A DNA stretch of 33,514 nucleotides from Gammaproteobacteria bacterium (GTDB lineage Bacteria; Pseudomonadota; Gammaproteobacteria; Burkholderiales; Gallionellaceae), in contig JAHJQE010000083.1 in assembly GCA_018819205.1 (NCBI GenBank), forward strand, positions 1 through 33,514, written 5' to 3'. Positions 726 through 22,533 of this stretch are shown here, in pieces. The notes below the pieces were generated by a model. That model did no database searches. It was not told the DNA's origin and worked only from the letters and a program-made list of their open reading frames with translations. Both the position numbers and the translations under genes were made by a program. Within the stretch, counting starts at the first letter, position 1. Each line of letters opens with the position of its first letter.

Positions 726-1484
726 TCAGGGCAGGGCGACGGATTGAGGCATCAGTGCGAGAGTATAAATCCCTGGGCGGGTTTCTGGGCCTATGTAATG
801 CAGCAATTCGTTCAACTCATCCTCAGCGCCGGCTGCAGCCTGGGCCGTGCCGCTGATCTGCACGCCCTTGGATGGATCGAGTTGCCCGCGCGCCTGCATC
901 TGCAGTTTCCCGCCCTGTGTGCTGAGGTTGGCTGCAAGCTTTTGTCCATCACCCTGCAACACGATGCGGTAGTCACCCAGCGGTGCGATGGGCGACAAGC
1001 CGGAAGCCGCATTTAGCCAATCGACCGTGATTTGGCCGAGCAGGCCGCGCGCATCCAGCTGTAGATGCCCGGCGTGGGCCTGCAAAGCACCCTGCAGACG
1101 ATAAGGATGCAGTTGCGGTGCAGCCACCTCGAGTAGCGCAGCCGGCAGATCCAGGCGCAGATGTTCGATGTCCAGACGTGCAAGCAACGGCCGATATTGC
1201 AACGACATCGGCTCGTAGGTGCCCGCCTGCAGTTGCATGGCAGCGCGCCAGGGTTGCAAGTGCCAGTGATAAACGCCCAGGGAGCGGATGCCGGACGAGT
1301 TCTGGAAAAGGAGGATGCCGGAACCTTGCCATAACGAGCCCTGGGTGCGTGCCAGCATGAGTTGCCCACCGGAAGCACGTTCCACTACATGCCCCATCAG
1401 GGTTGAGGGCGCCAGCGCGAGCAGGGCTGCAATAAAGACCGCACTGAACAATAGCGTCAGCGCAAGACGGCGACGCAAGCTCAC
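726..1484 (-). CDS. gspN: Type II secretion protein GspN
   Basis: GspN is an accessory inner-membrane or periplasmic T2SS protein found in only some systems. A GTG start at 1482-1484 gives 252 residues beginning VSLRRRLALTLLFSAVF, a basic patch followed by one membrane segment (about residues 6-25). The rest is periplasmic, beta-rich and typical of GspN: a GHVVERASGG stretch, then LGVYHWHLQPW. I chose GTG over the upstream ATG at 1610 because the longer version adds 42 low-complexity residues that are only a shadow of gspM. With GTG the gene overlaps the gspM stop by four bases (GTGA), matching the coupling of its neighbours. It is the last gsp gene; aroE follows. Confidence 0.85.
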   Translation of the reverse strand: MSLRRRLALTLLFSAVFIAALLALAPSTLMGHVVERASGGQLMLARTQGSLWQGSGILLFQNSSGIRSLGVYHWHLQPWRAAMQLQAGTYEPMSLQYRPLLARLDIEHLRLDLPAALLEVAAPQLHPYRLQGALQAHAGHLQLDARGLLGQITVDWLNAASGLSPIAPLGDYRIVLQGDGQKLAANLSTQGGKLQMQARGQLDPSKGVQISGTAQAAAGAEDELNELLHYIGPETRPGIYTLALMPQSVALP

Positions 1485-1984
1485 AGGTCGGCCCCGTTGC
1501 TGAGCGTGGCCTGTACCTTGATGTTGCCTGGAACGGGGGCCGCTGAAAGCATGGCCGTCTCGACCCGGATGTGCTGGGTGCGCTCCAGTGTACGCAGCCA
1601 TTGCAACCATAACTCGAATGAGAGGCTTTCAGAGCTGATATGCACGCTGTTCTGCTCGGCAGGGGTGACGACGAAACTCAAACCGGATTCCTTCGCGCTG
1701 TTATCAATTGCGGAGCGCAACGCATTGCCATCCAGCACTGCAAGTTGGGCACGCTGACGAAGGTTCTGTACTTCACCGGCCTGCATGCTCATCTGCGATG
1801 CCTGGGCACGCAATTGAGGCAACGTCGCTTTCAGTTTGGGTAATGCGTCGTGTGCGGGTTGCCATAACAGACCATAGGCCAGCAGCGGCAACAGTATCCA
1901 AGCCCCGCGGCGGATGGACCACTGCTCGGCGGCACTGAGCGTGTCCCAGTGTGCGTATTTCAATTTGGCTATCTGTGTCCTCAT
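1481..1984 (-). CDS. gspM: Type II secretion protein GspM
   Basis: GspM is a bitopic inner-membrane protein that pairs with GspL in the T2SS assembly platform. The 167-residue product has a basic cytoplasmic tail, a membrane segment near residues 29-45 (GAWILLPLLAYGLLW) and a heptad-rich stretch (KLKATLPQLRAQASQM...). A small ferredoxin-like periplasmic domain follows (AIDNSAKESGLSFVV to the end). Length and layout match the family. It overlaps gspL upstream by ATGA and gspN downstream by GTGA. Function is assigned from layout and operon position, because GspM sequences are poorly conserved. Confidence 0.88.
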   Translation of the reverse strand: MRTQIAKLKYAHWDTLSAAEQWSIRRGAWILLPLLAYGLLWQPAHDALPKLKATLPQLRAQASQMSMQAGEVQNLRQRAQLAVLDGNALRSAIDNSAKESGLSFVVTPAEQNSVHISSESLSFELWLQWLRTLERTQHIRVETAMLSAAPVPGNIKVQATLSNGADL

Positions 1985-3189
1985 CGCACACCTCCTGCAG
2001 AGACGCGCAGTTGTATAGAGAGTGCGTCGCCTGCAACCTGGGTGTTGGTCACCTGTGCAGACAACCCCGCCTCGGCCAGACGCTGGTGCAGCAGATCGAG
2101 CGGGCTCGATCCGCTCAGGCGCATCTCAATATCCAGTTTGCCGGTTTCATAGCGCAAGGTGTTCACGGTACGACCGGGAATGTCCTGGGTGGCGACCGAG
2201 AACTTTTCCAGCAAAGGCAGGAAGTCGGCATCATCCTCGACACCTGCCGCATGGCGCAGGCGAGAGACGTTGCGTCGCATTTGCAAAGGTGCGTCTACCA
2301 CGACTGCATCGGCACCGAAGGTCTCACGGAAGGTGTCGGTCATGGCCGATGCCAGTTGGTGTTTTTCACTTGCCAGTACTGCCCACTCCAGATTGGTCAG
2401 TACGGTCTCCACGCCGAGCAGCAGCAGTGCCGCCATAAACGCCGGGCGTAGTCTGGGCCAAAGTTCATCGATGCGCGGGGGCGGTGCGAATTTCCCCCAC
2501 ATCAGATTCGGTGCTTCGCTTGGGATGTCCGCCTTGCGCCAGTCGAAGTGCTGATGCTCGAACAATACCGGTACCTTGATACCCCAGTTCGGTGCCTGGA
2601 CATCGCTGCCCAGTGTGAACAGGCGCATGGCGGCCGGTGCATGCTGTTGTAATCGCAACAGCAAGGAAAGCGGTATGCGCGTGTCTTCCCCGCCATCCAG
2701 TGCGCCGCCCAGATATCCGCCCGCGGCCATGAATCCTTGCGTGCCATCCCATGCCACGCTCCATTCATCGTTGCGCAACGGCAGCAGGCAGAATTCCGGC
2801 ACGACTCGACGCATGCGCATTTTTGCAGTGCCGCAAGCAGCCAGGAAACGTGACAGCCAGCCTTTGTCCAGTGCATACAGCACGGTGCGGCCATCCGGCA
2901 ACTTGCTGCCGGGGGTGACGTGGATCGAGCTTGCGTCCTCCAGCAGACAGTCTTCCAGCGCGTAGGGCAGCGCGGTCTCCAGTTTGTTGCGTTTCAGTTT
3001 GGGCAATTCAGCTGTGGTTGATAGCACGCGGTCGGCGGCGACGATGGCGACTGCTTCGTCAGCCTGCGGCATGGAAGCCAGTGTGCCGGTGCCGCTGTCA
3101 CGCAGATTACCGTCGTCATCGAGCAGTGCCCATGCGCAGTTCGAAGCGGCGTCCTGCCAGTGAGCTGTGAGATGGATGCGCAGTTTCAT
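1981..3189 (-). CDS. gspL: Type II secretion protein GspL
   Basis: GspL anchors the ATPase GspE to the inner membrane. The 402-residue protein starts MKLRIHLTAHWQDAASNCAWALLDDDG, an actin-like cytoplasmic fold whose beta-strands continue through VAIVAADRVLSTTAELPKL and ALPYALEDCLLED. A membrane segment lies near residues 248-268 (RPAFMAALLLLGVETVL), followed by the periplasmic ferredoxin-like domain (LRYETGKLDIEMRLSGSSPLDLL). Length is normal. The start ATG overlaps the gspK stop and the stop overlaps the gspM start, both as ATGA, so synthesis is coupled to its partners. Confidence 0.93.
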   Translation of the reverse strand: MKLRIHLTAHWQDAASNCAWALLDDDGNLRDSGTGTLASMPQADEAVAIVAADRVLSTTAELPKLKRNKLETALPYALEDCLLEDASSIHVTPGSKLPDGRTVLYALDKGWLSRFLAACGTAKMRMRRVVPEFCLLPLRNDEWSVAWDGTQGFMAAGGYLGGALDGGEDTRIPLSLLLRLQQHAPAAMRLFTLGSDVQAPNWGIKVPVLFEHQHFDWRKADIPSEAPNLMWGKFAPPPRIDELWPRLRPAFMAALLLLGVETVLTNLEWAVLASEKHQLASAMTDTFRETFGADAVVVDAPLQMRRNVSRLRHAAGVEDDADFLPLLEKFSVATQDIPGRTVNTLRYETGKLDIEMRLSGSSPLDLLHQRLAEAGLSAQVTNTQVAGDALSIQLRVSAGGVR

Positions 3190-4100
3190 TGCAGACTCTT
3201 CCTGACTTGTTCCGCCCAGTTGCCGTCGCGTTTCAACAGAGCGTGCACGGACGACTCTCCTTCACCCTGGGTGGCGTATCCGGTCACCATGAAATATTTG
3301 CTGCTCACGCTGAGATTCTCCGATCCGGTCCGATTGATATGCAGTTGTTGCATGAAGTCATTCACACTATTGAAAGGCGTCGCGCTTATCTGCTGATGGA
3401 TACGCCGCGCATCTTGCAGACTGAGTCCCGGCAGCACCGAGATCAACACCTCGGGCGGTGCGAAGTTCACATTCACCGGTGTGTTCGATTCCGGCAGGAC
3501 ACTCACATACGGTTCCAGACGCTTGATGATACTGGCATCGTAACCTTTCACCCAGACCAGCTCGCCGATATCCGACAGCATCCTGTTCGCGCAGCGGTAG
3601 GGGCGCTCACGACTCATGTAAAAATCATCCTCCGCTCCGTTCGCCAAGGTATCGCTATTCGCATCCAGCCAGTCCACCAGCGTACTGCCCAGATCCTGCG
3701 GCAATCCCAATGTGTCGAGGAGACGCTGGAAGTGCGCCACATCCAGTGTGCTTGCCACCCCGTTACGCACCAGATTGTTCAGATTGAACAGTCCCTGCTG
3801 GTCGTGGATCGCGCCGCGCACCTCGCCGCCTTCCAGTTGCACAGCCGGCAAACGCATCGCCCACATCTCTTTGCCGTGATCGAGTCCCCGGCTGACAGAA
3901 GCGTCGTCCGCCAGCACGGCACGCGCCCAGTCTATCCCGGCTTCGGCGATGCGCCGCGCCTGGGCGCGATCACGCCCGTTCTCCATTGCGCGCTGCCAGA
4001 AACCTTGCTGCTGCGCCACGAATGCTGCGATGGTGGTTGCCATCGCCACGATCAGCAACACCATCACCAATGCCATGCCTGTTTGCTTGCGTCTGTTCAT
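3186..4100 (-). CDS. gspK: Minor pseudopilin GspK
   Basis: GspK is the largest minor pseudopilin and caps the tip of the T2SS pseudopilus with GspI and GspJ. An ATG at 4098-4100 gives 304 residues: MNRRKQTG|MALVMVLLIVAM, a prepilin peptidase site followed by the hydrophobic helix. Position +5 is valine rather than glutamate, which is the known hallmark of GspK. A long alpha domain follows (NLNNLVRNGV..., DWLDANSDT, NGAEDDFYM), then TPVNVNFAPPEVL and a helix-hairpin-helix-like SLQDARRIHQQI. A longer reading frame begins at 4211, but its extra 37 residues lie over gspJ and do not look like protein. It overlaps gspJ (upstream) and gspL (downstream) by ATGA. Confidence 0.94.
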   Translation of the reverse strand: MNRRKQTGMALVMVLLIVAMATTIAAFVAQQQGFWQRAMENGRDRAQARRIAEAGIDWARAVLADDASVSRGLDHGKEMWAMRLPAVQLEGGEVRGAIHDQQGLFNLNNLVRNGVASTLDVAHFQRLLDTLGLPQDLGSTLVDWLDANSDTLANGAEDDFYMSRERPYRCANRMLSDIGELVWVKGYDASIIKRLEPYVSVLPESNTPVNVNFAPPEVLISVLPGLSLQDARRIHQQISATPFNSVNDFMQQLHINRTGSENLSVSSKYFMVTGYATQGEGESSVHALLKRDGNWAEQVRKSLQ

Positions 4101-4702
4101 CGCAGCGAGAATAGCCGGGTCAGTTTTTCGCCACTCTTCAATACCACCATCACCTCCAAAGCTTTTGGGGTATCCGCATCGGGTATTCTGGGAGGCCACT
4201 GCATTTCCCAAACGAGTCGGCTGGACAGGTAGCGCAGATTGAATTCGTCCACGTCATCCAGCACAGCATCCACAGTCGGCGCATTGTACGGGGCGCTATC
4301 CAGCATCGTCCAGCGCAGCAACTCGATCTTGTTCTGTCGCAGCCGGTAGCCGATACGCTGCGGTGGAAGCGGTGCGCCGGAGGCATCAAAACCGCCATGG
4401 CGAGTGAAGGTCAGCTGTGCGTTTTCCAGACTGCCGGTGCTGGATGATGAGCCTGTCCAAGCTGGCGCTTCAGCACCGTTCGCTGTGCGCACCGGACGCG
4501 CCAATACCTGCGCCGTCTCACCGTCCAGTCGCGCGAAGAACCGTTCCAGCGCCTGCCATTTGCGCGTCTCATGATCGAGCTGGGTGCGTGTCTGTGTCAC
4601 TGCGTTCAAACCGCGATACGCCGTAACGGCCAGCAGGGCGAACACGAACAGGGCGACCAGCAGTTCAACAAGGGTGAAGCCGGCATGGCGTTTGACTCTC
4701 AT
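4097..4702 (-). CDS. gspJ: Minor pseudopilin GspJ
   Basis: GspJ is a minor pseudopilin of the T2SS tip complex. The 201-residue product opens MRVKRHAG|FTLVELLVALFVFALL, a full type IV prepilin signature with Glu at +5 and the peptidase site after Gly8. The globular part contains RLDGETAQVLARPVR and IGYRLRQNKIELLRW, typical of GspJ. Length is in the family range. It sits in the chain G-H-I-J-K with four-base overlaps to gspI and gspK. Confidence 0.94.
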   Translation of the reverse strand: MRVKRHAGFTLVELLVALFVFALLAVTAYRGLNAVTQTRTQLDHETRKWQALERFFARLDGETAQVLARPVRTANGAEAPAWTGSSSSTGSLENAQLTFTRHGGFDASGAPLPPQRIGYRLRQNKIELLRWTMLDSAPYNAPTVDAVLDDVDEFNLRYLSSRLVWEMQWPPRIPDADTPKALEVMVVLKSGEKLTRLFSLR

Positions 4703-5070
4703 CGTTTGAACTGCACCAGGTAACCCGACAGCTCGCGCAAGGAATGCGTCCTGTCATACGGGGCATATACGTTCACCACGATGCGACGCATGGTGGGATT
4801 GGGGGTGGCGATGATCTCTTCGCGCCACGGGTAGGACAGATCGGACTGCACTTCTTCGCCGTTCTGAATGCCGGTGGGCAGCCAGTCGCCGCGCGCCTGA
4901 TGCAGTGCCAGTCTGTTCTGAGCGACCCAGTCGGCGACGACGCGTGTGCGCAATGCCTCCACATGCTGGACACTGGAACTGGTGGTGCGCGACACGGCTG
5001 CCATGGCGATGGCGAGGATGGCGAGCGCGACCAGCACTTCGAGCAGGGTGAATCCACGCTGGCCTCTCAT
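4699..5070 (-). CDS. gspI: Minor pseudopilin GspI
   Basis: GspI is the small minor pseudopilin that nucleates the GspI-J-K tip. The 123 residues start MRGQRG|FTLLEVLVALAILAIAM, a clean prepilin peptidase site with Glu at +5. The rest shows the usual family run ADWVAQNRLALHQA, then a short C-terminal beta domain (RRIVVNVYAPYD). It overlaps gspH and gspJ by ATGA. No oddity was seen. Confidence 0.94.
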   Translation of the reverse strand: MRGQRGFTLLEVLVALAILAIAMAAVSRTTSSSVQHVEALRTRVVADWVAQNRLALHQARGDWLPTGIQNGEEVQSDLSYPWREEIIATPNPTMRRIVVNVYAPYDRTHSLRELSGYLVQFKR

Positions 5071-5537
5071 GGCGCCCCCCTCGCAGCGACTGTTACCTTG
5101 CCCAGTCCGTTGCCGACGACATCGGCAAGCGACCCCGTACTGCGCAGGCTGACACGGAATTTCCGTGCGACCAGTTCCGGGCTGAGTATGAGCAACGCCC
5201 CCGGTTCGAGCCGGCGGCCGTCGAAGCTGATTTCAGTTATATGTATCCCTTCAGGTAATACGCGCGGATGCAGCAGATTGTCGCGTTCAATGCGAATCCA
5301 ATCGCCTTCTCTGTTGCGTTCCCAGAACCGGTAGCTGTTCCCGGAGCCGGACCATGCCAGCGATTTTCCGCCTGCCTGTGTTGCCATTGCACCGTTCTCC
5401 ATCAGAAAAGCGAGACGCTGCGACTCTTCGCGCAACACTGATTCTGCACTCGGCATCAACTGCAGTGTGGCCATACTCAGCATGATGCCGGCGATCACCA
5501 GCGCGACCAGCATCTCCAGCAGCGTGAAGCCGCGCAT
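5067..5537 (-). CDS. gspH: Minor pseudopilin GspH
   Basis: GspH is a minor pseudopilin joining the tip to the GspG shaft. The ATG at 5535-5537 gives 156 residues beginning MRG|FTLLEMLVALVIAGIML, an unusually short leader (three residues) before the peptidase site. The remaining fold has LAFLMENGAMATQAGGKSLAW and a C-terminal beta part (LILSPELVARKFRVSL). A longer frame up to 5720 only shadows gspG and is rejected. It follows gspG by 14 bases and overlaps gspI by ATGA. The first 12 or so codons are repeated in a relic at 7600-7635. Confidence 0.92.
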   Translation of the reverse strand: MRGFTLLEMLVALVIAGIMLSMATLQLMPSAESVLREESQRLAFLMENGAMATQAGGKSLAWSGSGNSYRFWERNREGDWIRIERDNLLHPRVLPEGIHITEISFDGRRLEPGALLILSPELVARKFRVSLRSTGSLADVVGNGLGKVTVAARGAP

Positions 5538-5551
5538 GGGATAGTCTGGAA

Positions 5552-5998
5552 TCAGTCCTGCCACGAGCCGATGTCGGCGTCGCTGCCTTCGCCGCCGCTG
5601 GCGCGGTCGGCACCCAGGCTGAACACGTCGATCACGCCGTGCAAGCCGGGTTGCAGATATTGATAAGGCGTACCCCATGGGTCTTTCGGCACACGGTCGA
5701 GATAGCCTTCGCTCTTCCAATTGTTGGGGATGGGCGCGATGGTGGGTTTCTTCACCAGTCCAGCCAGTCCCTGTTCGGTCGAGGGGTGACGGCCGTTGTC
5801 CAGTTTGTACAGATTGAGCGCCTGCGAGATGGTGGCGATGTCCTGTTTCGCGGCCGTGATGCGCGCCTCGTCCGGTCGGCTCATCACCTTGGGCACGACC
5901 AAGGCGGCCAATACGCCGATGATGAGGATGACCACCATCAGTTCGATCAGGGTAAAACCCGAATGTCGAGTATGACTGTAAGCAGGATTAGATTTCAT
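5552..5998 (-). CDS. gspG: Major pseudopilin GspG
   Basis: GspG forms the shaft of the T2SS pseudopilus. The start ATG at 5996-5998 gives 148 residues: [34 protein letters not shown], with the peptidase site after Gly14 and Glu at +5. Family signatures follow: [13 protein letters not shown], the QALNLYKLDNGRHPSTEQGL core, [13 protein letters not shown], and a calcium-loop end (LGADRASGGEGSDADIGSW). A GGAAAG sequence lies 8 bases before this ATG. A possible upstream start at 6043 has no such support. Unlike in the textbook order, gspG is not next to gspF. A terminator, a lipoprotein gene and a broken second gspG lie between them, so it needs its own promoter or readthrough. Confidence 0.96.
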   Translation of the reverse strand: MKSNPAYSHTRHSGFTLIELMVVILIIGVLAALVVPKVMSRPDEARITAAKQDIATISQALNLYKLDNGRHPSTEQGLAGLVKKPTIAPIPNNWKSEGYLDRVPKDPWGTPYQYLQPGLHGVIDVFSLGADRASGGEGSDADIGSWQD

Positions 5999-6053: not shown

Positions 6054-6087
6054 TAAAAAAGCCCCTTCCTGCGAGAGGAAGGGGCTG
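6054..6087 (-). terminator. Intrinsic terminator after the 6099-7343 lipoprotein gene
   Basis: Read on the minus strand, AGCCCCTTCCT, loop CTCGC, AGGAAGGGGCT is a perfect 11-bp stem followed directly by six T. It lies 12 bases after the lipoprotein stop codon and 56 bases before the gspG start. It should therefore end the lipoprotein transcript and separate it from gspG-N. Confidence 0.92.
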
Positions 6088-6098: not shown

Positions 6099-7343
6099 TT
6101 AATACTGGCGATAGAAGTTGATGGTGTCTCCTGGGTTCGGCCAGTTGGTGGTGATCGTCATCGTATTGCCGCTGATAGCGATCGGGAAGGTGGCTGGCGT
6201 ACCGATATCACCGATGCCTGAACCTGTCCCGGGACCGTTGTCATCATAGGTCAGAGTGATGGTCACGGTTCCGCTGCTGTCGGCAGTGGGACTCAGGCCG
6301 GTGACAGTGAAAGTACCGTGCTCCAAGCCGTTCGGCGATGCGGAATCGTTCTCGACATAAGTAACATCTCCGGTCGAAGTCAGAACCAGCATGGACACAC
6401 CGTTATTGGCCGGATCAATGGATTTCCATGTGCCGACATAGCCTGCAGTGTTCGAGGGAAGACGGGTGAAGGTGTCGATCGCACCACCGGGATAAGTGAT
6501 GAGCGCGTTATTGCCGACATTGGAGTAGCTGACTGTCAAAGGATTGGCGATGCTGCTGATGCCGCCTGCAGCGCCGTTCAAATCGGTAACTACGGTCAAA
6601 GTGAGCTGGGTAGAGGTGAAGGAGTAGGTGCCGTATTCCATGCCGCTGCCATTGCCGGCGCCCAGCGCAGGGTGGAAGACTGCATAGGCAAAAGTGCCAT
6701 CAGGGAAGAAGTGGATGCCGGCATAGTTGACCAACGGGGCCGCAGCGACACTGGCTGTGAGGGCCCAGGTGCCGACGACCCCGCCACCCAGTGTGTTCAG
6801 CATATGCGTCTGTGCAACGGCGGAAGTCGGCATGGTCACGCCAGCGAAGGCACCGGCGAAAGCGGTGTCAAGGACGGCGGTGTTGGCGAAGTCAGCGATT
6901 GAAGGCGCAGCGGCAGCAGCCGAAGCGGGGATGGTGATGCCGTTCGCAGGATTCCCATCGCTATCCAGTGCCTGTAGCACGCGGGCGATGTTGATCGCTT
7001 TCAGATCGAGCGGACTGATGGTGTTAACCAAGTCCATCGGCGACACGCGCGCTCTGGCCGGGGCGGCGGGAAGCACCATGCTGCCGATCGAGAAAGTGAC
7101 GTTCTCCCCGGCAAGATACTTGAACTCGCCATTGGCATTGGTCGTGCCGTTCTGGGTGGCGGTCTGGTAGTTGATGTTGGCGACTGGTGCGTCGATGAAG
7201 ACGCCAGTGAGCGGAGTCGGTGCCGGTGTCGAAGGAACAGCGGTGGAACTACTGCTGCCGCCTCCACATGCGGACAATGTTGTCAGAACGATGCTGCTGC
7301 CAAGTACGAGATATGCCGGGGTACTGCTAAGTCGGAACGCCAT
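6099..7343 (-). CDS. Putative surface lipoprotein with two repeated beta units
   Basis: I do not recognise a named family. The 414 residues begin with a lipoprotein signal ending LTTLSAC (lipid on Cys26), then a Gly/Ser/Thr/Pro linker. Residues about 45-185 form a domain with GVFIDAPVANINYQT, TNANGEFKYLAGENVTFSIG and a helical part. The same pattern opens the PhoX-like lipoprotein at 8068-10428. Residues about 187-295 and 301-412 look like two copies of one beta-barrel-like unit: VGTW..., GMEYGTYSF..., DLNG in the first and VGTW..., GLEHGTFTV..., DDNG in the second. The start is supported by AGGAG eight bases upstream. It has its own sigma70-type promoter and terminator inside the gsp locus. 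A role as a T2SS client or surface protein is inferred from location only. Confidence 0.85.
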   Translation of the reverse strand: MAFRLSSTPAYLVLGSSIVLTTLSACGGGSSSSTAVPSTPAPTPLTGVFIDAPVANINYQTATQNGTTNANGEFKYLAGENVTFSIGSMVLPAAPARARVSPMDLVNTISPLDLKAINIARVLQALDSDGNPANGITIPASAAAAAPSIADFANTAVLDTAFAGAFAGVTMPTSAVAQTHMLNTLGGGVVGTWALTASVAAAPLVNYAGIHFFPDGTFAYAVFHPALGAGNGSGMEYGTYSFTSTQLTLTVVTDLNGAAGGISSIANPLTVSYSNVGNNALITYPGGAIDTFTRLPSNTAGYVGTWKSIDPANNGVSMLVLTSTGDVTYVENDSASPNGLEHGTFTVTGLSPTADSSGTVTITLTYDDNGPGTGSGIGDIGTPATFPIAISGNTMTITTNWPNPGDTINFYRQY

Positions 7344-7551: not shown

Positions 7552-7635
7552 TCACTTCACCATCTGGTTCATCTGGATGATGGGCAGCAGGATCGCCAGA
7601 GCAATCAGCATCTCCAGCAGTGTGAAGCCGCGCAT
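7552..7635 (-). pseudogene. Relic: gspH 5' end fused in frame to gspF 3' end
   Basis: Bases 7555-7599 match the last 45 coding bases of gspF (10533-10577) exactly. Bases 7600-7637 match the first codons of gspH (5500-5537) with a few changes. The join falls in a stretch where gspF and gspH resemble each other (GATCRCCAG). The result is an open 27-codon frame: ATG at 7633-7635, start MRGFTLLEMLIALAI, then the GspF end LLPIIQMNQMVK and TGA. It keeps a prepilin peptidase site and one hydrophobic helix but no globular domain. It is most simply a deletion scar from a tandem duplication. Expression is unknown. Confidence 0.85.
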
Positions 7636-7649
7636 GGGATAGTATGGAA

Positions 7650-7900
7650 TCAGTCTTGCCACGAGCCGATGTCGGCGTCGCTGCCTTCACCGCCGCTGGC
7701 TCGGTCGGCACCCAGGCTGAACACGTCGATCACGCCATGCACGCTGGGTTGAAGATATTGATAGGGCGTACCCCATGGGTCTTTCGGTACGCGGCCGTGA
7801 TGCGCGCCTCGTCCGGTCGGCTCATCACCTTGGGCACGACCAGCGCGGCCAGTACGCCGATGATGAGGATGACCACCATCAGTTCGATCAGGGTGGAACC
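7650..7900 (-). pseudogene. Decayed second copy of gspG
   Basis: This stretch repeats both ends of gspG and lacks the middle. The C-terminal part (7650-7790) encodes [19 protein letters not shown] to IGSWQD and the N-terminal part (7797-7900) encodes [17 protein letters not shown] to ARITAA, in different frames. Comparing landmarks, 157 bases are missing at 7787-7795 relative to the intact gene, which breaks the frame. By eye I count 11 differences over about 185 bases in the C-terminal part and adjoining gspH start. The residue after the cleavage-site glycine is Ser instead of Phe. Without the middle (core helix and loop) it cannot make a pseudopilin. Bases 7901-8006 upstream show no recognisable gene. 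Confidence 0.9.
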
Positions 7901-8006: not shown

Positions 8007-8042
8007 AAAAAAAACGCTCCGGCAGCCTTGGCTACCGGAGCG
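8007..8042 (-). terminator. Intrinsic terminator after the PhoX-like gene
   Basis: On the minus strand, CGCTCCGGTAGCC and GGCTGCCGGAGCG pair over 13 bp (one T-G wobble) with a two-base loop, followed by eight T. It lies 25 bases after the stop of the PhoX-like gene and should block most readthrough from gspC-F towards the gspG side. Confidence 0.92.
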
Positions 8043-8067: not shown

Positions 8068-10428
8068 TTACTGCATGGCAGGCAGGCCGCTCAGATAGCC
8101 AACTTCAGCTTTGTCAGTGTTGATTAGCGGCAGGATGCGCGCATGCACGGTCGGATTGGTTCCATTCAGGTCGCCCGCATGCTGGTAGTTGCTCATGATA
8201 TAGGCGCGTCCGTTCAGGTTCTCCACAACTTGCAAGCCAGTGGATTCCGCGCCCATCGGCAGCGACAGGATGCGCACCAAGTTACCGGTGTCGATGTGGT
8301 AAGCCCACAGGTAGTTGTTGACGTGGTTGGCGGAATCCTCACCAATGAACAACACGCGCATCTTTTCAGAGAACCACACGTTGTCCGGGCTGGCGATGCC
8401 GTTCAAGTCGGACTTGTTGCCGTCCGCATCGGCAGCGATGTCTTTGCCAACGACGAGCGCCTTCATGAGCGTCGGAACGAAGTTGCTGTTGATGGCAGTG
8501 CCGTTCGAATCCGCTTGGCCGCTTTGCAACGTCAACTCGTACACCGCGCCGGATGAATTCTTCTTCAGGCGGATGTCGTTGACCGGCTCTGAGGCGCTGA
8601 CTGTGACGGATTCCATACCTTTGGTCATACGGGTCATGGCAGCATAGGCCTTGTTGTCCTTCGCGTTGTAGGCAACTCCCTCATACTTTTCGAATTCCGT
8701 CGTTGCGCCCAGCATCGCGGCATAGCGGCGGGTTTCGAGGAAGGCAGCCAAGGTGGCGATAGGGACGCCGGTGGTGCCGAAGGTGCCGGTCTTTAGTTGC
8801 AGGTATTCGACCTTGGCGACTTCATGTCCGGTCTTGATGGCGGTGAATCCGGCTGCCGCCACATCGGAAGTCAGGAACAGGTCGCTGAAGGTGACTCCGG
8901 CATCGACAGCCGCCTTGATGTCGGCATGCGTGGCATGGCCAAGGTTGACCCAGGACAGATAGGCTTCGCCACCGTCCGTGCCGGTGGGGGACATCTGGTT
9001 CCATTTGGCGGCATACAACGAGCCTGCGGACAAGTCGCCCGGATTGTCCGCGACAAACATTGTCAGGCTGGTGTAGGTGCCGTCGTCTCCCTGAATAGCA
9101 GTACGCGAGTCGCCGAACATCTGCACCTTCTCACGCGCCAGGCGACCCAGCGTGTACCACTTCTCAACTGTGGATGTGCCGTTGCTTGCGATGGTGACTT
9201 CCGGCACGCGACCGTATTGATAAGGCGATGCAGTGGCTTCACCGTAAATGGTGCGGAACGCATTCATGCGGGAGGTGTATTCCATGGACAGACAGGAGCC
9301 ACCGACCAGGGCGGCATAGGTCGCATCGACTTCGCAACGCGCATCAGGCTCGTACTCTTCAGAGCCGAGGTGTGTGTTCCATGGCGAGCGGCTACCGGCA
9401 CAGGGGATCCACAGGCCGTTCACTGCAGAGAAATCGACTTGAGAGATGGAATCGACCGTGAGCTTGCCGTCGGTGCTGGACTGGATCAATTTCGACACGG
9501 TCATCAGCATCGGCTGCTTGCCGTACCAGTTGGTGCCGGTGCTGTCGTTGTTCTCATATTCGAAATGCGTCACAAGATAAGGGGTGCCGCCGATATCCAT
9601 CAGGGAGTTGGCATCGGGCGTCTGGGGAATGATCGGTTTGCCGTTCGCATCATTGACTACTGTGCCGGTTTTGGTGTGCACGGCAGCAGCAGCCGTACCG
9701 TCGATAGTCTTGCCGGTGTCGATGTTGCTGAACAAATTGACGTAGGACAGCGGGTAAGTCGTGACCGAACCATCGGTATAAGTCACTTGCACGGACGATG
9801 TCGTATATGCGATAGCCCGGTTCGCATCAGACAGGCCGGTGATATCGGTCGGAGTGAAATTCACCGATTTGACTTTGGCTGGGGCATTGAGCAAGTGTGT
9901 GGTGACGTTATGTATTGGGGTCGGAGTCAGGCCGGCACCCGTCAGAAGGGTGCTCGCGGCAGCCAGCGAGTCCACAGTACCGGAGGTCGCCAGTTTGGAA
10001 GCATTGGCCGAAACGTCGATATGCGTATCGGTGGTGGAAGCCCCGGCCACTGTCTGGATCACTTGCGCAACGGCTAGCGCCTTTTGGTCTACTTCATCCA
10101 TAACTCCGGCCAGATCCTTAGGGCGCAACACTTTTTTTCCGTTCTCAGTGCTTAGAGCGGAACCATCCATGTGCACCGCACCAAGGTTCACTTGGCCGAT
10201 CTTGAAGCTGACCGTGTCGCCATCAGCGTATGTGAATTCTCCGTTTGTTCCGGTGACACCTGAAGCGCCGCTGGTCGTGCTGTAGCTCACGCCTTTGACA
10301 TAGGAATCCGACAGGATGCCTGTCAGTGAGGTGCTGCCGCTCGTGGTATTGCTCGAACCGGAGCCGCAACCGGCAAGCAGCAGGGCAGACAGCACGGCCA
10401 GATATACAGCGTTATTGCGCATTTCCAT
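8068..10428 (-). CDS. PhoX/DUF839-like outer-membrane or secreted lipoprotein
   Basis: The 786 residues start at the ATG at 10426-10428, with GGAGG five bases upstream; an in-frame TTG at 10440 is less likely. A lipoprotein signal ends LLAGC (Cys21). Residues about 35-185 repeat the N-terminal domain of the 6099-7343 lipoprotein (LTGILSDSYVKGVSY, TNGEFTYADGDTVSFKIG). From about 270 onward it resembles PhoX/DUF839 beta-propellers: IPCAGSRSPWNTHLGSEE near 342-358 corresponds to the CAGG-TPWGT-L-EE motif. It is followed by TEFEKYEGVAYN and SPDNVWFSEKMRVLFIGED. PhoX enzymes are Ca/Fe phosphatases, and a PhoX-type phosphatase (UxpB) is a known T2SS substrate in Pseudomonas putida. Phosphatase activity and T2SS export here are inferences. 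It follows gspF by 101 bases and ends at a strong terminator. Confidence 0.85.
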   Translation of the reverse strand: MEMRNNAVYLAVLSALLLAGCGSGSSNTTSGSTSLTGILSDSYVKGVSYSTTSGASGVTGTNGEFTYADGDTVSFKIGQVNLGAVHMDGSALSTENGKKVLRPKDLAGVMDEVDQKALAVAQVIQTVAGASTTDTHIDVSANASKLATSGTVDSLAAASTLLTGAGLTPTPIHNVTTHLLNAPAKVKSVNFTPTDITGLSDANRAIAYTTSSVQVTYTDGSVTTYPLSYVNLFSNIDTGKTIDGTAAAAVHTKTGTVVNDANGKPIIPQTPDANSLMDIGGTPYLVTHFEYENNDSTGTNWYGKQPMLMTVSKLIQSSTDGKLTVDSISQVDFSAVNGLWIPCAGSRSPWNTHLGSEEYEPDARCEVDATYAALVGGSCLSMEYTSRMNAFRTIYGEATASPYQYGRVPEVTIASNGTSTVEKWYTLGRLAREKVQMFGDSRTAIQGDDGTYTSLTMFVADNPGDLSAGSLYAAKWNQMSPTGTDGGEAYLSWVNLGHATHADIKAAVDAGVTFSDLFLTSDVAAAGFTAIKTGHEVAKVEYLQLKTGTFGTTGVPIATLAAFLETRRYAAMLGATTEFEKYEGVAYNAKDNKAYAAMTRMTKGMESVTVSASEPVNDIRLKKNSSGAVYELTLQSGQADSNGTAINSNFVPTLMKALVVGKDIAADADGNKSDLNGIASPDNVWFSEKMRVLFIGEDSANHVNNYLWAYHIDTGNLVRILSLPMGAESTGLQVVENLNGRAYIMSNYQHAGDLNGTNPTVHARILPLINTDKAEVGYLSGLPAMQ

Positions 10429-10529: not shown

Positions 10530-11753
10530 TTACTTCACCATCTGGTTCATCTGGATGATGGGCAGCAGGATCGCCAGCACGATCAGCAACACCACCGCAC
10601 CCATGAACAGGATCAGCAAGGGTTCGAGCAGGGCGGTGAGGGCGGTTGTGAAGCCGGCGACTTCCTGCGTCTGCTGCTTGGCGACGCGATCCAGCATGGT
10701 GTCCAGACGGCCGCTCTGTTCACCGCTGGCGATGAGATGCACCAGCACCGGCGGGAACAGACCTGAGGCGGCGAGCGCGCGGCTCAGTGTCACGCCTTCG
10801 CGTACTTTTGCAGCGGCCTCTTCCAGTGCCCGCTGCATGGGCAGGTTGCTCATCACACCGCAGGCGGCATTGAGTGCGGTGAGCAGCCCGACACCGCTTC
10901 CGACCAATATGGACAGTGTGCTGGCCATGCGTGCGGTGTTGCTGCCGCGTATCAGTTTGCCCATTACAGGCAGGCGCAACAGTTTTAGATGCAGTTGGTA
11001 GCGCAGCGCGTCCAGTCGCAAGGCTCGTTGGGCAAGGATGCCGCCGATCACGGTAAGCGCGATCAGATACAGCCAGGTGGCGGACAGGAAATCGCTCAGT
11101 GCGATCAGCGCCCTGGTCAACAAGGGCAATTCCTGCCGTGTCTGCTGGAACACTTCCACCACGGGTGGCACCACGAACAACAACAATCCGCCGACCACCA
11201 GCACTGCGACGAAGATGACGATGGCGGGGTACACCATCGCCAGACCGATCTTCTGCTGCAGGGCTTGCTGACCTTCCGAATAGGTCGCGAGCTTGTCCAT
11301 CACCGTGTCGAGTTCGCCGGACTCTTCCCCGGCTCGGATCAGCGCGCGGTGGATGTCCGGGAAAGTGTCGCGGTGTTTTTCCATCGCGCGTGCCAGCGTG
11401 CTGCCCGCCAGCACTTCCGAACGCAGAGCGGCGACCACTTGCCGCATGGCCGGGTTACCGCCTTGCTCGATCAGCACTGCCAGCGCCTGCTCCAGTGGCA
11501 GGCCAGCTTCAAGTAGTGTGGCGAGTTGGCGCAACATGAGGCTGACTTCGGACAGTGGGATACGCTTGCGGAACGGTAGTCTGATGTTGCGTGTAGCGCT
11601 TTGTTCAGGTGTGTCCGTCAATGCGTTCAACTCGACCACGAACAGGCCGCTCTCCCGCAAGGCGGCACGGGCCAGTCGGGCAGAGTCGGCTTCGATCATG
11701 CCGCTGTTGGGTTTGCCTGCCGGGTCGAGTGCCTGGTAATTGAAAGCAGCCAT
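10530..11753 (-). CDS. gspF: Type II secretion inner-membrane platform protein GspF
   Basis: GspF is the polytopic core of the T2SS assembly platform. The 407 residues start MAAFNYQALDPAGK, the usual GspF N-terminus. Two T2SSF repeats follow, one at about 70-195 (LMLRQLATLLEAGLPLEQAL) and one at about 270-400 (RMASTLSILVGSGVGLLTAL). Membrane segments occur near 165-190 (YPAIVIFVAVLVVGGLLLFVV), 215-240 and 375-400 (LLILFMGAVVLLIVLAILLP). It starts 10 bases after gspE. The last 45 coding bases recur exactly at 7555-7599. Confidence 0.96.
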   Translation of the reverse strand: MAAFNYQALDPAGKPNSGMIEADSARLARAALRESGLFVVELNALTDTPEQSATRNIRLPFRKRIPLSEVSLMLRQLATLLEAGLPLEQALAVLIEQGGNPAMRQVVAALRSEVLAGSTLARAMEKHRDTFPDIHRALIRAGEESGELDTVMDKLATYSEGQQALQQKIGLAMVYPAIVIFVAVLVVGGLLLFVVPPVVEVFQQTRQELPLLTRALIALSDFLSATWLYLIALTVIGGILAQRALRLDALRYQLHLKLLRLPVMGKLIRGSNTARMASTLSILVGSGVGLLTALNAACGVMSNLPMQRALEEAAAKVREGVTLSRALAASGLFPPVLVHLIASGEQSGRLDTMLDRVAKQQTQEVAGFTTALTALLEPLLILFMGAVVLLIVLAILLPIIQMNQMVK

Positions 11754-11763: not shown

Positions 11764-13254
11764 TTAGTCGCGCGTGGCGCGTATCACTTCTTCGACCGAG
11801 GTGTCGCCGGACATCACCCAGCGCAATCCGTCGTCGCGCAGATTCTTCATGCCGTGTCGCACGGCGTGGTCGCGCAACTGCTGTTCGCTTGCGCGGCTGT
11901 GGATCATGCTGCGCAGGGTGTCATCGACTTCCAGCAATTCGTAGATGCCGGTCCGGCCGCGATATCCGGTGTGATTGCATGTCGGGCAGGCACTGGGGCG
12001 ATACAGCACTTCGGGCCTGCCGTGCGCGGCGAGCAGCGCGAGTTCGGTCTCGTCCGGCGTATACGCTACCCGGCAGTCCGGACACAGACGGCGTACCAGT
12101 CGCTGCGCGAGCACGCCGACGATGCTGGAAGACAGCAGGAAAGGTTCGACGCCCATGTCGGTGAGACGGGTGACCGCACTGACGGTGTCGTTGGTGTGCA
12201 GGGTCGCCAGCACCAGATGGCCGGTGAGACTGGACTGCACGGCGATCTGTGCGGTCTCGAGGTCGCGGATCTCGCCAATCATGATCACGTCCGGATCTTG
12301 GCGCAGGATGGCGCGCAGGGCGCGCGCGAAGCTCATGTCGATGCGCGGGTTGACCTGGGTCTGGCTGATGCCATCGAGGTCGTATTCCACCGGGTCTTCG
12401 ACAGTCATCACGTTGGTGACGGACGAATCGATGCAGGACAGTGCTGCATACAAAGTCGTCGTCTTGCCGGAACCGGTGGGGCCGGTGACCAGTACGATGC
12501 CGTGCGGCTGGCTGGTGAGTCTCTGCATGGCGTCGAGTGTCGCCTTGCTCATGCCGAGTCGGGTCAGATCCAGACGGCCCGCTTCCTTGTCGAGCAGACG
12601 CATCACCACGCGTTCACCATGACCGGTGGGCAGGGTCGAGACGCGCACATCGACCGGGCGTCCCGCCAGTCGCAAAGCGATGCGTCCGTCCTGCGGCAGG
12701 CGCTTCTCGGCGATGTCGAGGTCGGCCATCACCTTGATGCGTGATACCAGTGCGGCGTGCAGTGCGCGGTGCGGTTCGGCGATATCCTTGAGTGTGCCGT
12801 CGAGACGGAAGCGCACCACCGAACGCGTCTCGAACGGTTCGATGTGGATGTCGGAAGCATTGTCGCGCACGGCCTGCGCCAGCAGCGCGTTGATCATGCG
12901 GATCACCGGTGCATCATCCTCCGATTCCAGCAGGTCGGTGGACTTGGGCAGGTCGTGCAGCAGCATCGACAAGTCCATGTCCTGCTCGGCATCGTCCAGC
13001 AGCGTGGCGGTGGAGTCCTCCGCCTGCGAGTAGGCGTTGCTGAGGATACGCTCGAAGTCTTCCGCTTCCACCAGCGTGGTTTCGACCGGTAGCGCAAGCT
13101 GGCGCATCACTTCGGCGATTGCCTCCGGCCTGGCATCGCTGCGTACCGCCAGCGTGGCGAGACCGTTGCAATCGGTCAGCACCACCCCCTGTGCTTTGGC
13201 GAAGCTGTAGGGCAGGCGGCGCGCGGCGCGGCGGTTGATCGCGGGCTGGCTCAC
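11764..13254 (-). CDS. gspE: Type II secretion ATPase GspE
   Basis: GspE is the cytoplasmic hexameric ATPase that drives pseudopilus assembly. The 496 residues include an N-terminal N1E-type domain that docks to GspL (FAKAQGVVLTDCNG...). They also carry Walker A GPTGSGKTTTLYAAL near residue 259, an aspartate box (MTVEDPVEYDLDGISQ), Walker B MIGEIRDLETA, and a histidine box ATLHTNDT. A tetracysteine zinc site (CPDC...CPTC) lies near 400-430. The start is GTG at 13252-13254, overlapping the gspD stop (GTGA). Length is normal. Confidence 0.97.
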   Translation of the reverse strand: MSQPAINRRAARRLPYSFAKAQGVVLTDCNGLATLAVRSDARPEAIAEVMRQLALPVETTLVEAEDFERILSNAYSQAEDSTATLLDDAEQDMDLSMLLHDLPKSTDLLESEDDAPVIRMINALLAQAVRDNASDIHIEPFETRSVVRFRLDGTLKDIAEPHRALHAALVSRIKVMADLDIAEKRLPQDGRIALRLAGRPVDVRVSTLPTGHGERVVMRLLDKEAGRLDLTRLGMSKATLDAMQRLTSQPHGIVLVTGPTGSGKTTTLYAALSCIDSSVTNVMTVEDPVEYDLDGISQTQVNPRIDMSFARALRAILRQDPDVIMIGEIRDLETAQIAVQSSLTGHLVLATLHTNDTVSAVTRLTDMGVEPFLLSSSIVGVLAQRLVRRLCPDCRVAYTPDETELALLAAHGRPEVLYRPSACPTCNHTGYRGRTGIYELLEVDDTLRSMIHSRASEQQLRDHAVRHGMKNLRDDGLRWVMSGDTSVEEVIRATRD

Positions 13255-15272
13255 GGCAGATTCGGTTCGGTACCTGCGATGGCGGGTGATGCGCTACTGG
13301 TATCGATCGCGCCGTCCACCTTGAGCGAAGGCATCTTCCCAGTGTCGTCGTCCGGCAGCATCAAGTGATCGCCGAGGCGCGCATCTTCGCGCGTCTTGCC
13401 GATCTGTTCGTAACGCTTGCTGGAAAACTGTTGTGCTGCGTCCGCCTGATACATGATGTATGGGCGGATGAACACCATCAGATTGGTCTTGGAGCGCTGG
13501 CGCGTCTCGTAGCGGAACAGATTGCCCAGCAAGGGGATGTCGCCGAGGATGGGGGTCTTGCTCTGCACGTTGTTGATCGAATCCTGGATCAGGCCGCCCA
13601 GCACCACGATCTGGTTCTCGTCCACCAGGATGCTGGATTCGATAGAACGCTTGTTGGTGGTGATGCCGTTGGCCGCCGTCAGTGAAGAGGAAAGCACGCT
13701 CGATACTTCCTGATACACCTGCAGCTTCACCGTTCCGCCCTGCATGATCTGCGGTTTGATCTTCAGCGTCAGGCCGACATCCTTGCGTTCGATGGTCTGG
13801 AACGGATTGGCAGCGGTGCTGCTGGAGCCGGTATTGGTATAGGAACCGGTGATGAAAGGCACGTTCTGGCCGACCACGATCTTGGCCTCTTCGTTGTCCA
13901 GCGTCATCAGGTTGGGTGCGGACAGGATGTTGGCATTGGTGTCGCTCTCCAATGCCCGTGCCAGCATGCCGAGATTGAGGACTTTCGTGCCGTCCAGCAG
14001 CGTGGTGGTGCCTTTCACGATGCCGACGTTCAACCCCTGGCCTACAGTCGTGACATCAGCCGCAGCACCGATGATGTTGTTGGTGGTGCCGAAGTTGGTG
14101 CCGCCGATGATATTGCTGCCCGGCTTGTTGATGCCGTTGATGCTCTGCCACTGGATGCCGAATTCGGCGGCCTTGTCGGCCGTGACCTCGACGATGAGTG
14201 CTTCGACGAACACCTGCGGGCGGCGCACATCAAGTTTCTCGATCACGGCGCGGATGTTGTTATAGACCGGTTCGGAAGCGGTGACGATCAGGGTGTTGGT
14301 GGCGGCATCGGCCTGCACGACGGCGCCGCTGCTGGTGGCATCGTTCGTCGCAGGCTTGAACGCAGCCTGTCCTGTGGGGACAGGGGCGGCGGTCGCCGTC
14401 CCGCTCAGGATCGCATTCAGCGTCTGTGCGAGTTTGGGAGCCTCGGCATTCTTCAGTGTGATGACATGGATGTTGCCCGGTACGCTCGACGCACTGTCCA
14501 GACTGGCGACCAGCCGTTTCACGCGCTCGATGCGCCCCGGATTGTCCGAGCGCAGCAACAGCGCATTGGTGCGGCTGTCGGCGGTCAGTACGAAACGCTG
14601 GTTGTCGTCGCCCGGCTGTGTATTGGTCGCTTCCGGCATCAGTTTGTTGATGAGGTTGGCTAGGTCGATGGCAGAGGCGTGTCTCACTGGAATGACCAGC
14701 GGCAAGTCATTGCCGGCCTTGTCGATGGAGGCGATCAGTTTTTCGATACGGCTGATGCCGCTGGCATAGTCGGTGACCACCAGCGCATTGCTGGCCGGGT
14801 ACGCGACCACGATGTTGTTGGGCGCGACCATGGGGCGCACCACATTGACCAGTTGCGAGGCGGATTCGTTCTTCAGTATGAATACGCGCGTGACCAGTTT
14901 GTCACCTTTGCCCTGCGGCGAAGCGAGGGTGTCCACATGCAGCTTGGCATCGGCTTCGGGAATGATCTTGGTGATGCCGGAAGATTCCACCGAAGCATAG
15001 CCTTGCATACGCAGCGCGGAGAGCAGGATGTTGTATGCCAGATCGGCAGAGACCGGCGTGGCGGAGACGATATTGAGGGTGCCTTTAACACGCGGGTCGA
15101 CCAGGAAATTCTTGCCGGATATCTGCGAGATGGCGCGGATGACTTCCTGGATGTCGGCATTCACGAAATTGAGCGAGACCTGCCCGTCGTTCTGTTCCGC
15201 ATGCAAAGGCAGGGCCATGCAGAGGGCGAGGCTACCGGTCAGTAGCAGTTGACGCATGAAGCGTGTGATCAA
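13251..15272 (-). CDS. gspD: Type II secretion outer-membrane secretin GspD
   Basis: GspD forms the outer-membrane channel. The 673 residues have a signal peptide ending LPLHA (about residue 25), then the N0 domain (VSLNFVNADIQEVIRAISQI) and N1-N3 domains (VFILKNESASQLVNVVRPM; VIPVRHASAIDLANLINKL; VITLKNAEAPKLAQTLNAI). The secretin barrel core contains VGQNVPFITG, DVGLTLKIKPQI, LVDENQIVVLGGLIQDS and LGDIPLLGNLF. I chose TTG at 15270-15272 because AGGGGA lies five bases before it and it overlaps the gspC stop (TTGA). An ATG at 15257 lacks a ribosome-binding site. The N3 region carries an Ala/Thr/Pro-rich insert (about residues 292-318). Confidence 0.97.
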   Translation of the reverse strand: MITRFMRQLLLTGSLALCMALPLHAEQNDGQVSLNFVNADIQEVIRAISQISGKNFLVDPRVKGTLNIVSATPVSADLAYNILLSALRMQGYASVESSGITKIIPEADAKLHVDTLASPQGKGDKLVTRVFILKNESASQLVNVVRPMVAPNNIVVAYPASNALVVTDYASGISRIEKLIASIDKAGNDLPLVIPVRHASAIDLANLINKLMPEATNTQPGDDNQRFVLTADSRTNALLLRSDNPGRIERVKRLVASLDSASSVPGNIHVITLKNAEAPKLAQTLNAILSGTATAAPVPTGQAAFKPATNDATSSGAVVQADAATNTLIVTASEPVYNNIRAVIEKLDVRRPQVFVEALIVEVTADKAAEFGIQWQSINGINKPGSNIIGGTNFGTTNNIIGAAADVTTVGQGLNVGIVKGTTTLLDGTKVLNLGMLARALESDTNANILSAPNLMTLDNEEAKIVVGQNVPFITGSYTNTGSSSTAANPFQTIERKDVGLTLKIKPQIMQGGTVKLQVYQEVSSVLSSSLTAANGITTNKRSIESSILVDENQIVVLGGLIQDSINNVQSKTPILGDIPLLGNLFRYETRQRSKTNLMVFIRPYIMYQADAAQQFSSKRYEQIGKTREDARLGDHLMLPDDDTGKMPSLKVDGAIDTSSASPAIAGTEPNLP

Positions 15273-15838
15273 GGCAATCCCCTATGATTGTTCTGCAGCA
15301 CTTGTTTCATCATGGTCTGTTGTTCGGGTGTCAATTGGTCCAGTGCAGGAGCATTGGCAGAAATCAGCGCTTCTGCCTGTCCTGCACCGACAGATTGCAC
15401 GGGGGTGATGCCGTCCGTTGCCGAGACCGCACTCAGATCGACGCGCTGTCTGACGCCGTTGCGCTCAAGTATCACGTGATCGGCGTTTGTCTCGATCAGA
15501 CGCACGCCCCGTGCGACTTCACTGCCCAGTCCCACACCGCGTTGGCCAGAGGGGGTCTGCATCACCGCAAAGCCGCGCGTGCTGTGAGCGAAGATGCCGA
15601 CCGGCCGGATGTTATCCAGCGATGCTGTTGTGCTACCGGTAGAGTTTGCAGTACCGAACAATTGTCCGGTTCGGTTGGAAAGCGGAATGGCGGTGTTGCC
15701 GGGAAGCGCTCGATCGGCAGGCGCGAACAGCACCCATGCGTGCTGTGCCAGCAACAACATCGCGAGCAGCCCCCCCCATAGTGGCCAGTTGAGCCAGAGT
15801 CGGGCGGGTGCTGTAAAGAACTTTCTTCCCAACAACAT
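15269..15838 (-). CDS. gspC: Type II secretion protein GspC, short form
   Basis: GspC links the inner-membrane platform to the secretin. The ATG at 15836-15838, with AAGGGA six bases upstream, gives 189 residues; a start at 15874 is less likely. A membrane segment lies near residues 17-40 (WPLWGGLLAMLLLAQHAWVLF). The homology region that binds GspD N0 follows (LDNIRPVGIFAHSTRGFAVM..., VGLGSEVARGVRLIETNADHVILERNGVRQRVDL). No PDZ or coiled-coil domain follows, so it is the short form, smaller than the PDZ-bearing GspC of enterobacteria. First gene of the gsp set. Confidence 0.92.
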   Translation of the reverse strand: MLLGRKFFTAPARLWLNWPLWGGLLAMLLLAQHAWVLFAPADRALPGNTAIPLSNRTGQLFGTANSTGSTTASLDNIRPVGIFAHSTRGFAVMQTPSGQRGVGLGSEVARGVRLIETNADHVILERNGVRQRVDLSAVSATDGITPVQSVGAGQAEALISANAPALDQLTPEQQTMMKQVLQNNHRGLP

Positions 15839-15864
15839 GCGGTATCCCTTTATTGCGGAGGGCG

Positions 15865-15870
15865 AATATA
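15865..15870 (-). promoter_or_regulatory. Possible extended -10 promoter for gspC
   Basis: On the minus strand, TGCTATATT forms an extended -10 (TATATT at 15865-15870) about 27 bases before the gspC ATG. No convincing -35 is visible at 17 bases, which is tolerated with an extended -10. The gap between the znuB-like stop and gspC (15839-15906) contains no clear terminator, so readthrough from the metal-uptake operon is also possible. Confidence 0.4.
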
Positions 15871-15906
15871 GCACAGCTCCTACGCGGTGGTTGCCTTCCG
15901 GGCGGG

Positions 15907-21849: not shown

Positions 21850-21876
21850 GGGGGAGTACTGAAAAGATTGCGGCGG

Positions 21877-21882
21877 ATTATA
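21877..21882 (-). promoter_or_regulatory. Sigma70 -10 element upstream of the RNase gene
   Basis: Minus-strand GGTTATAATCC contains a perfect TATAAT at 21877-21882. No good -35 is present at 17 bases (GGAAGTTC is the nearest). It would start a leader of about 20 bases and drive the RNase-tonB-barrel-znuAB run. The same bases look like half of a Zur-type GTTATA site, but no clear full palindrome is present. Confidence 0.45.
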
Positions 21883-22465: not shown

Positions 22466-22485
22466 TCCTGATTCGGTTGCAGCAA

Positions 22486-22515: not shown

Positions 22516-22533
22516 CAATGGTGCGTCAGAGGA

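Follow-up and report, generated by a model that had tools for sequence, protein, structure and literature searches.

A predicted PhoX-family lipoprotein with an SslE-type domain, encoded inside a GspN-containing T2SS operon in Gallionellaceae

Introduction

To our knowledge, the substrates of the T2SS share no recognised secretion signal. One of them, UxpB of Pseudomonas putida, is a PhoX-like protein that we do not know to be a lipoprotein and for which we know of no SslE-type domain. In PulA of Klebsiella, Asp follows the lipid-bearing Cys, and the pulA gene lies at the edge of its cluster and not between the F and G genes. It has been reported that GspN is needed for the T2SS-dependent surface lipoproteins of Acinetobacter and for PulA (Roberts et al., PMC12802150). 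In the same work, a motif of Gly/Ser or Asn/Asp behind the lipidated Cys proved necessary, though it did not suffice (Roberts et al., PMC12802150). Thus, a further secretion signal must exist, and a distinct one has been postulated (PMC12802150). Another T2SS lipoprotein is SslE of E. coli, in which the NT2 region comprises residues 230-425 (PMC8881592). On the other hand, ElpS of Caulobacter crescentus is encoded beside a T2SS and reaches the surface without it (PMC2996285), so operon position alone is weak evidence for export by the T2SS.

Here, we analysed a stretch of 33,514 nucleotides (hereafter the window) from a draft genome of 2.15 Mb, which belongs to a relative of the iron oxidisers within Gallionellaceae. 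A sequence-only reading of the window had described a lipidated PhoX-type propeller with an extra N-terminal domain, encoded directly after gspF. We refer to this protein as LIPO1 and to its N-terminal domain as the N-domain.

Results and discussion

The LIPO1 gene and its operon

The minus strand of the window carries a complete operon in the order gspC-D-E-F, a slot, then gspG-H-I-J-K-L-M-N (Table 1). With this gspC-N set and a PF01203 match over the cut-off, the genome has a T2SS that includes GspN. The LIPO1 reading frame is intact and occupies exactly 8068-10428 on the minus strand, with an ATG start, a GGAGG site upstream and a gap of 102 bp from the gspF stop. Full-length orthologues were present in six species of the genus including that of the window, the five others being 78-82% identical to it. 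Since all six keep the whole of LIPO1 at the same place, neither the domain pair nor the gene position is due to chance.

Table 1. Features of the window and of related loci (positions without a locus handle refer to the window)
Feature	Position	Strand	Basis
gspN (lipoprotein-specific T2SS component)	726..1610	-	Pfam T2SSN PF01203, 1.2e-24, over cut-off
gspM, L, K, J, I, H	1481..5720	-	gene order and sequence; syntenic in relatives
gspG (major pseudopilin)	5552..5998	-	sequence; syntenic in relatives
LIPO2, second predicted lipoprotein (LSAC, then GGGSSSS), same N-domain type	6099..7343	-	N-domain profile, identity to LIPO1 domain, NCBIfam SslE
Remnant block: gspG fragment, gspG/gspH junction fragment, gspF 3' end	7554..7900	-	blastn
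Strong predicted intrinsic terminator after LIPO1, ahead of the remaining operon	8015..8042	-	12-bp stem and T8
LIPO1, PhoX-type predicted lipoprotein, 786 aa	8068..10428	-	PF05787 2e-15, PhoX fold match, five same-genus orthologues 78-82%
PhoX-like beta-propeller, residues ~186-786, with C343, E358, E433, D449, K581, E583	8071..9873	-	3zwu alignment, homologue invariance, Foldseek
SslE-NT2-type domain, residues ~36-181, beta-sandwich and helical tail	9886..10323	-	SslE profile match, NCBIfam SslE models, model pLDDT
LIPO1 lipobox LAG-C (Cys21), then GSGSSN sorting stretch	10366..10377	-	sequence; motifs compared with PMC12802150
gspF	10530..11753	-	sequence; 83-88% identical in 13 same-genus operons
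gspE, gspD, gspC	11764..15874	-	TIGR02533 and TIGR02517 over cut-off; GspC below cut-off
Di-haem cytochrome c peroxidase (MauG-type) lipoprotein, C-GGGSEAS	L012 6144-7361; L013 6316-7542	-	between LIPO1 and gspG, two relatives
Multihaem cytochrome, 9 CXXCH	L012 10253-12499	-	between gspF and LIPO1; Pfam MtrC/MtrF domain II/IV 1e-9
Competibacteraceae PhoX-like lipoproteins	L148, L149, L151, L153, L156, L166		N/D-rich stretch, no N-domain

The LIPO1 leader (MEMRNNAVYLAVLSALLLAGC) contains no twin arginine and hence no Tat signal peptide, which is usual though not defining for PhoX. It does contain a lipobox, LLAG-C21 (MEMRNNAVYLAVLSALLLAG followed by Cys), and LIPO1 is probably lipidated at Cys21. 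The residues after the Cys are GSGSSNT (CGGGS, counted from the Cys, in most orthologues) and are Gly/Ser- or Asn/Asp-rich at positions P2'-P8', as in the published motif (PMC12802150). Both the lipobox and a Gly/Ser-rich stretch were found in 6/6 orthologues. The N-domain, of about 150 residues, comes next, and the PhoX-fold propeller fills the C-terminal ~600 residues. Thus, the layout described in the sequence-only reading was borne out by the reading frame, the lipobox, the PF05787 match and the match to SslE. LIPO1 is real, intact and conserved; by prediction it belongs to a known type of T2SS surface lipoprotein, and the novelty here lies in a PhoX enzyme combined with an SslE-type domain.

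The terminator behind LIPO1 is found in 6/6 genomes with compensatory changes in its stem, and the sequence upstream of the gene is partly conserved. These features imply that LIPO1 may close a gspC-F unit or be transcribed from its own promoter. A terminator-like hairpin (11 bp, T5) was also seen at 6060-6086, after LIPO2 and just before gspG, so that both cargo genes end in predicted terminators inside the gsp operon. The neighbours of the operon (a TonB-like gene, a porin, ZnuA and an ABC permease) seem to agree with what has been published on the T2SS cluster of Sideroxydans ES-1, the first gene of which is TonB-like (PMC3770913). By sequence reading, the region 19139-33263 contains a TonB-like gene, an RNase II-like gene, cytochrome c, YebC-like, ruvA-ruvB, tol-pal, queE and queC.

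A PhoX-type propeller with conserved metal-site residues

Pfam PF05787 (PhoX) matched LIPO1 with 57.3 bits (cut-off 24; E 2e-15), leaving the N-terminal third of the profile unmatched. A structure model was built from an alignment of 83 rows, 27 of which were short N-domain rows partly misaligned along the chain, and reached a pLDDT of 91 and a pTM of 0.89; an earlier model from 9 near-identical sequences (pLDDT 43) was discarded. The best PDB matches of the model in Foldseek were Pseudomonas fluorescens PhoX structures (4a9v, E 5e-18; 3zwu, 1e-17), and the next unrelated fold followed at 2e-6. Identity to PhoX in the structural match is only ~16%. In the alignment with 3zwu, PhoX residues C179, E194, E273, D292, R385 and E387 correspond to C343, E358, E433, D449, K581 and E583 of LIPO1, and these six positions of the metal and phosphate site were invariant in 56/56 homologues, from Gallionellaceae to Bacillus. 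The Fe-binding thiolate of PhoX is presumably that of C179, and the ligand roles of the site residues are in part what we take the PhoX structure to indicate. The Cys of the IPCAGS motif, named as a possible ligand in the sequence-only reading, is C343, the counterpart of C179. That PhoX binds Fe through a thiolate has been described (PMC4223295).

As judged from the modelled fold and the aligned metal-site residues, there is a strong case that LIPO1 is a PhoX-family enzyme, and it is probably active as a phosphatase. It is unlikely, in our estimation, that the propeller has some activity other than that of a phosphomonoesterase, although the low identity to PhoX and the unmatched part of the profile would fit such a divergence, since all six site positions are kept over so wide a range of bacteria. 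The one replacement among them, R385 by Lys, is conservative and has also been reported in Psip1, an active phosphatase (PMC11098088). LIPO1 shares the propeller fold and the Fe/Ca-site residues with P. fluorescens PhoX (3zwu, 4a9v), and differs from it in its predicted lipidation, in predicted Sec rather than Tat export and in the additional SslE-type N-terminal domain, besides the low identity. If exported by the T2SS, LIPO1 would resemble UxpB, which we take to be a PhoX-type enzyme exported in this way.

The N-domain is related to a region of SslE

No Pfam family covers the N-domain of LIPO1. When a profile of this domain was compared with the PDB, its sole sequence relative was SslE (AcfD homologue 23px, E 3.8e-10) at SslE residues 286-337, which fall inside NT2, and NCBIfam SslE models matched 8/8 members. 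The pLDDT across the domain was about 80-98, mostly >88. The domain is unrelated to PhoX; we rejected the idea that it is part of PhoX, as soluble relatives and Bacillus homologues do without it. LIPO1 resembles SslE/YghJ in the NT2-region domain, the lipobox and the T2SS association; in SslE, on the other hand, NT1 precedes NT2, and the enzyme part of LIPO1 is PhoX. Neither the M60 mucinase nor the NT3 part of SslE was matched by LIPO1, which does not belong to the SslE/AcfD metalloproteases, with NCBIfam scores of 23 bits against a cut-off of 3000 and 20 against 800 and no M60 Pfam match.

Only two copies of the domain were found by profile search in the genome of the window, in LIPO1 and LIPO2. 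In 35 domain proteins from other genera it nearly always comes immediately after a lipobox and a stretch that is mostly rich in G/S/D/N; most of the exceptions have missing or broken N-termini. The passengers vary, and include GH16/CBM, beta-propellers, 5'-nucleotidase, PAF-acetylhydrolase-like and RHS proteins. None of these 35 genes adjoins a gsp operon (0/35, with one gspE-like match near L106), so the in-operon location is special to the clade of the window. The frequency of the sorting motif compared with background lipoproteins of the same loci gave p=0.13, with a background of 17 proteins, several of which are themselves of the target type.

Distribution of the N-domain and GspN

To compare the domain with GspN, 276 genomes were drawn evenly over the class, and GspN was counted when over the cut-off. 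The N-domain was found in 30 of them, GspN in 132 and GspL in 169. Among the 169 GspL-positive genomes, the domain was present in 28/131 with GspN and in 0/38 without (p=4e-4); the same comparison gave 21/78 versus 0/25 when collapsed to families (p=0.001), and 7/22 versus 0/12 within the genus (p=0.03). Two domain-bearing genomes of the class sample, G142 (gene broken) and G186, lacked both GspN and GspL. Thus, the N-domain tracks GspN and not the T2SS in general. Since it was never found in sampled T2SS genomes that lack GspN, it is a candidate address label for surface display, and it may be the extra secretion signal postulated previously (PMC12802150).

Alternatively, the domain could be a generic spacer or glycan-binding module and no signal, its link to GspN arising because GspN genomes display more lipoproteins. 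This explanation has to be taken seriously and falls only a little short of probable: the domain is fused to many different passengers, some lipidated relatives lack it, and in SslE it is preceded by NT1. However, its nearly constant place as the first domain after the lipobox is not what such a module would lead one to expect, and PhoX, another exported family, served as a control in the same GspL-positive genomes and had no GspN bias (50/131 with GspN versus 15/38 without; p=1).

We also followed the LIPO1-type enzyme beyond the genus. Full-length fusions with the N-domain occurred in GspN-positive genomes in 16/16 cases, the window's included. Six relatives from Competibacteraceae, encoded in genomes that are also GspN-positive, are lipidated and PhoX-like and have an N/D-rich stretch behind the Cys, yet lack the N-domain; the N-domain is thus not essential to the lipidated type. 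Soluble Gram-negative homologues came mostly from genomes without GspN, and soluble relatives in the genus of the window (L014-L016) have neither lipobox nor N-domain and lie away from gsp genes. In plain counts, 21/23 versus 1/9 related lipidation to GspN within the enzyme family. A tree-aware test of this relation was not significant, with only 3-5 independent changes, and the pattern is therefore merely consistent with the GspN link and not independent support for it.

A second T2SS context near the Competibacteraceae genes was considered and rejected: behind their gspE/gspF-like neighbours lie genes for a prepilin peptidase and a CoaE-like protein, which makes this the pilB-pilC-pilD set of type IV pili. 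In L148, L149, L151 and L166 the PhoX-like gene is divergent from the pilB-like genes, with pilC and pilD-like genes next where read.

The gspF-gspG slot

The description of the slot in the window can be extended, as it also holds a remnant block (7554-7900) and the LIPO2 gene (6099-7343). The N-domain profile, which was built partly from LIPO2, matched LIPO2 at 6789-7235 (E 4e-54), an independent NCBIfam SslE match gave 8.6e-5, and the N-domains of the two proteins are 31% identical. The remainder of LIPO2 weakly resembles Lipocalin_4, with a score that does not reach the Pfam cut-off. The two lipoprotein genes are separated by fused pieces that are 91-95% identical to the intact gsp copies: by blastn, 7790-7900 corresponds to 5849-5959 (95.5%), 7591-7801 to 5493-5703 (91.5%) and 7554-7616 to 10532-10594 (92%). 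These gspG, gspH and gspF remnants suggest a history of duplication and deletion in which two 'F-cargo-G' arrangements became fused.

LIPO1 was present in 6/34 genomes of the genus searched, and lay between gspF and gspG in 6/6; in seven operons of the same type in the genus, gspF and gspG are adjacent and LIPO1 is absent. In two relatives a MauG-type lipoprotein gene lies in the slot as well, one of them also with a multihaem cytochrome gene (Table 1). A 2017 survey of Fe(II) oxidisers reported no MtrC or OmcA homologues (PMC5566968). The best reading is that LIPO1 is one of several clade-specific cargoes of the slot. It is possible, though in our view rather doubtful, that the Gallionellaceae slot serves as an evolving site for cargo, at which NT2-domain fusions are gained, lost and stacked, with the domain as a portable lipoprotein secretion signal.

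Some further arrangements were seen in the genus. The relative L011 encodes, at 13097-14062 on the plus strand between gspI and gspJ, a 321-aa repeat protein (ASVSGGQxNTASG, beta-roll). Other members (L057-L063) have a second gspC-F type, ~66% identical, with gspG/gspH just upstream of gspC and not after gspF in two operons; a C-GGGGSS lipoprotein is encoded near gspF in L060 and L063.

A possible route to the cell surface

We consider it fairly probable that LIPO1 is a Sec-exported, lipidated PhoX-family phosphatase which the GspN-containing T2SS delivers to the external side of the outer membrane; held there by its lipid, it would liberate phosphate from organic esters. Along this route, LIPO1 would be exported by Sec and lipidated at Cys21, and the Gly/Ser stretch after the Cys would allow it to avoid the Lol pathway and to be recognised by GspN. 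The SslE-NT2-type N-domain would act as a folded secretion signal read by the T2SS, which would push the folded protein through GspD. LIPO1 would then stay anchored to the surface by its lipid and free phosphate outside the cell. A Sec-exported PhoX would acquire its iron in the periplasm and not in the cytoplasm, which is plausible for iron oxidisers (for the Tat argument on PhoX iron uptake, see PMC4223295).

Several parts of this proposal were computed directly, namely the gene, its lipobox, the PhoX fold, the metal-site residues, the identity of the domain, the conserved slot, GspN in the operon and the association of domain and GspN. The lipidation of LIPO1, its surface location, its dependence on the T2SS and GspN, its activity and the signal role of its N-domain are inferred. 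That the SslE-NT2-type domain is the distinct signal so far missing, portable between lipoproteins and acting with the post-Cys motif in their transfer to the surface by GspN and the T2SS, is conceivable but, by a clear margin, less likely than not. The idea of a T2SS-lipoprotein module in the gsp operon is supported with regard to the fold, the lipidation signal, the slot (6/6), GspN and an N-domain shared with SslE and, among T2SS genomes, confined to GspN-bearing ones. The T2SS need not be dedicated to LIPO1: in the window or its relatives, the same slot houses genes for no fewer than two further lipoproteins and for a multihaem cytochrome.

LIPO1 might also be a periplasmic protein that is encoded in the gsp operon by coincidence. 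In Pseudomonas, Gly-rich sequence behind the Cys also serves as a signal for retention in the inner membrane (PMC12802150), the conserved upstream block and terminator of LIPO1 may mark a separate unit, and in other genera the genes of full-length homologues lie apart from gsp genes. We nevertheless judge such a location improbable, if not negligibly so, in view of the slot conserved in 6/6 genomes and occupied by other lipoproteins in relatives, and of an N-domain common to the T2SS lipoprotein SslE and confined to GspN-positive genomes among T2SS-bearing ones.

The comparison with ElpS raises another possibility, in which LIPO1 arrives at the surface independently of the T2SS, whose only cargo would be a protease that sets it free afterwards. 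ElpS, like LIPO1, is a lipoprotein encoded beside gsp genes; it is induced by phosphate starvation, linked to phosphatase activity and still surface-located in a gspC-N deletion, although, in contrast to a LIPO1 phosphatase, it was reported not to be itself a phosphatase (PMC2996285). For LIPO1 such a route seems very unlikely, given that surface localisation of InvL and PulA needs GspN (PMC12802150), that the N-domain tracks GspN rather than the T2SS generally, and that no protease gene was seen in the gsp operon of the window. If exported by the GspN-containing T2SS, LIPO1 could be compared with two other groups. InvL and other GspN-dependent lipoproteins of Acinetobacter share with it the lipobox, the Gly/Ser or Asn/Asp stretch and GspN in the T2SS, and differ in the passenger (PMC12802150); PulA would be comparable as a surface lipoprotein enzyme encoded in a gsp region, with a need for PulN, and is a different enzyme (PMC12802150).

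Biological significance

The locus points to a small foldable domain that occurs in a known T2SS lipoprotein and in dozens of different proteins and, among sampled T2SS genomes, only in GspN-bearing ones. The most interesting part is this testable link between the N-domain and GspN. Searching for the domain is an easy route to candidate surface lipoproteins of environmental bacteria, iron oxidisers included, and the surface phosphatases and cytochromes of iron oxidisers matter for phosphate and iron cycling.
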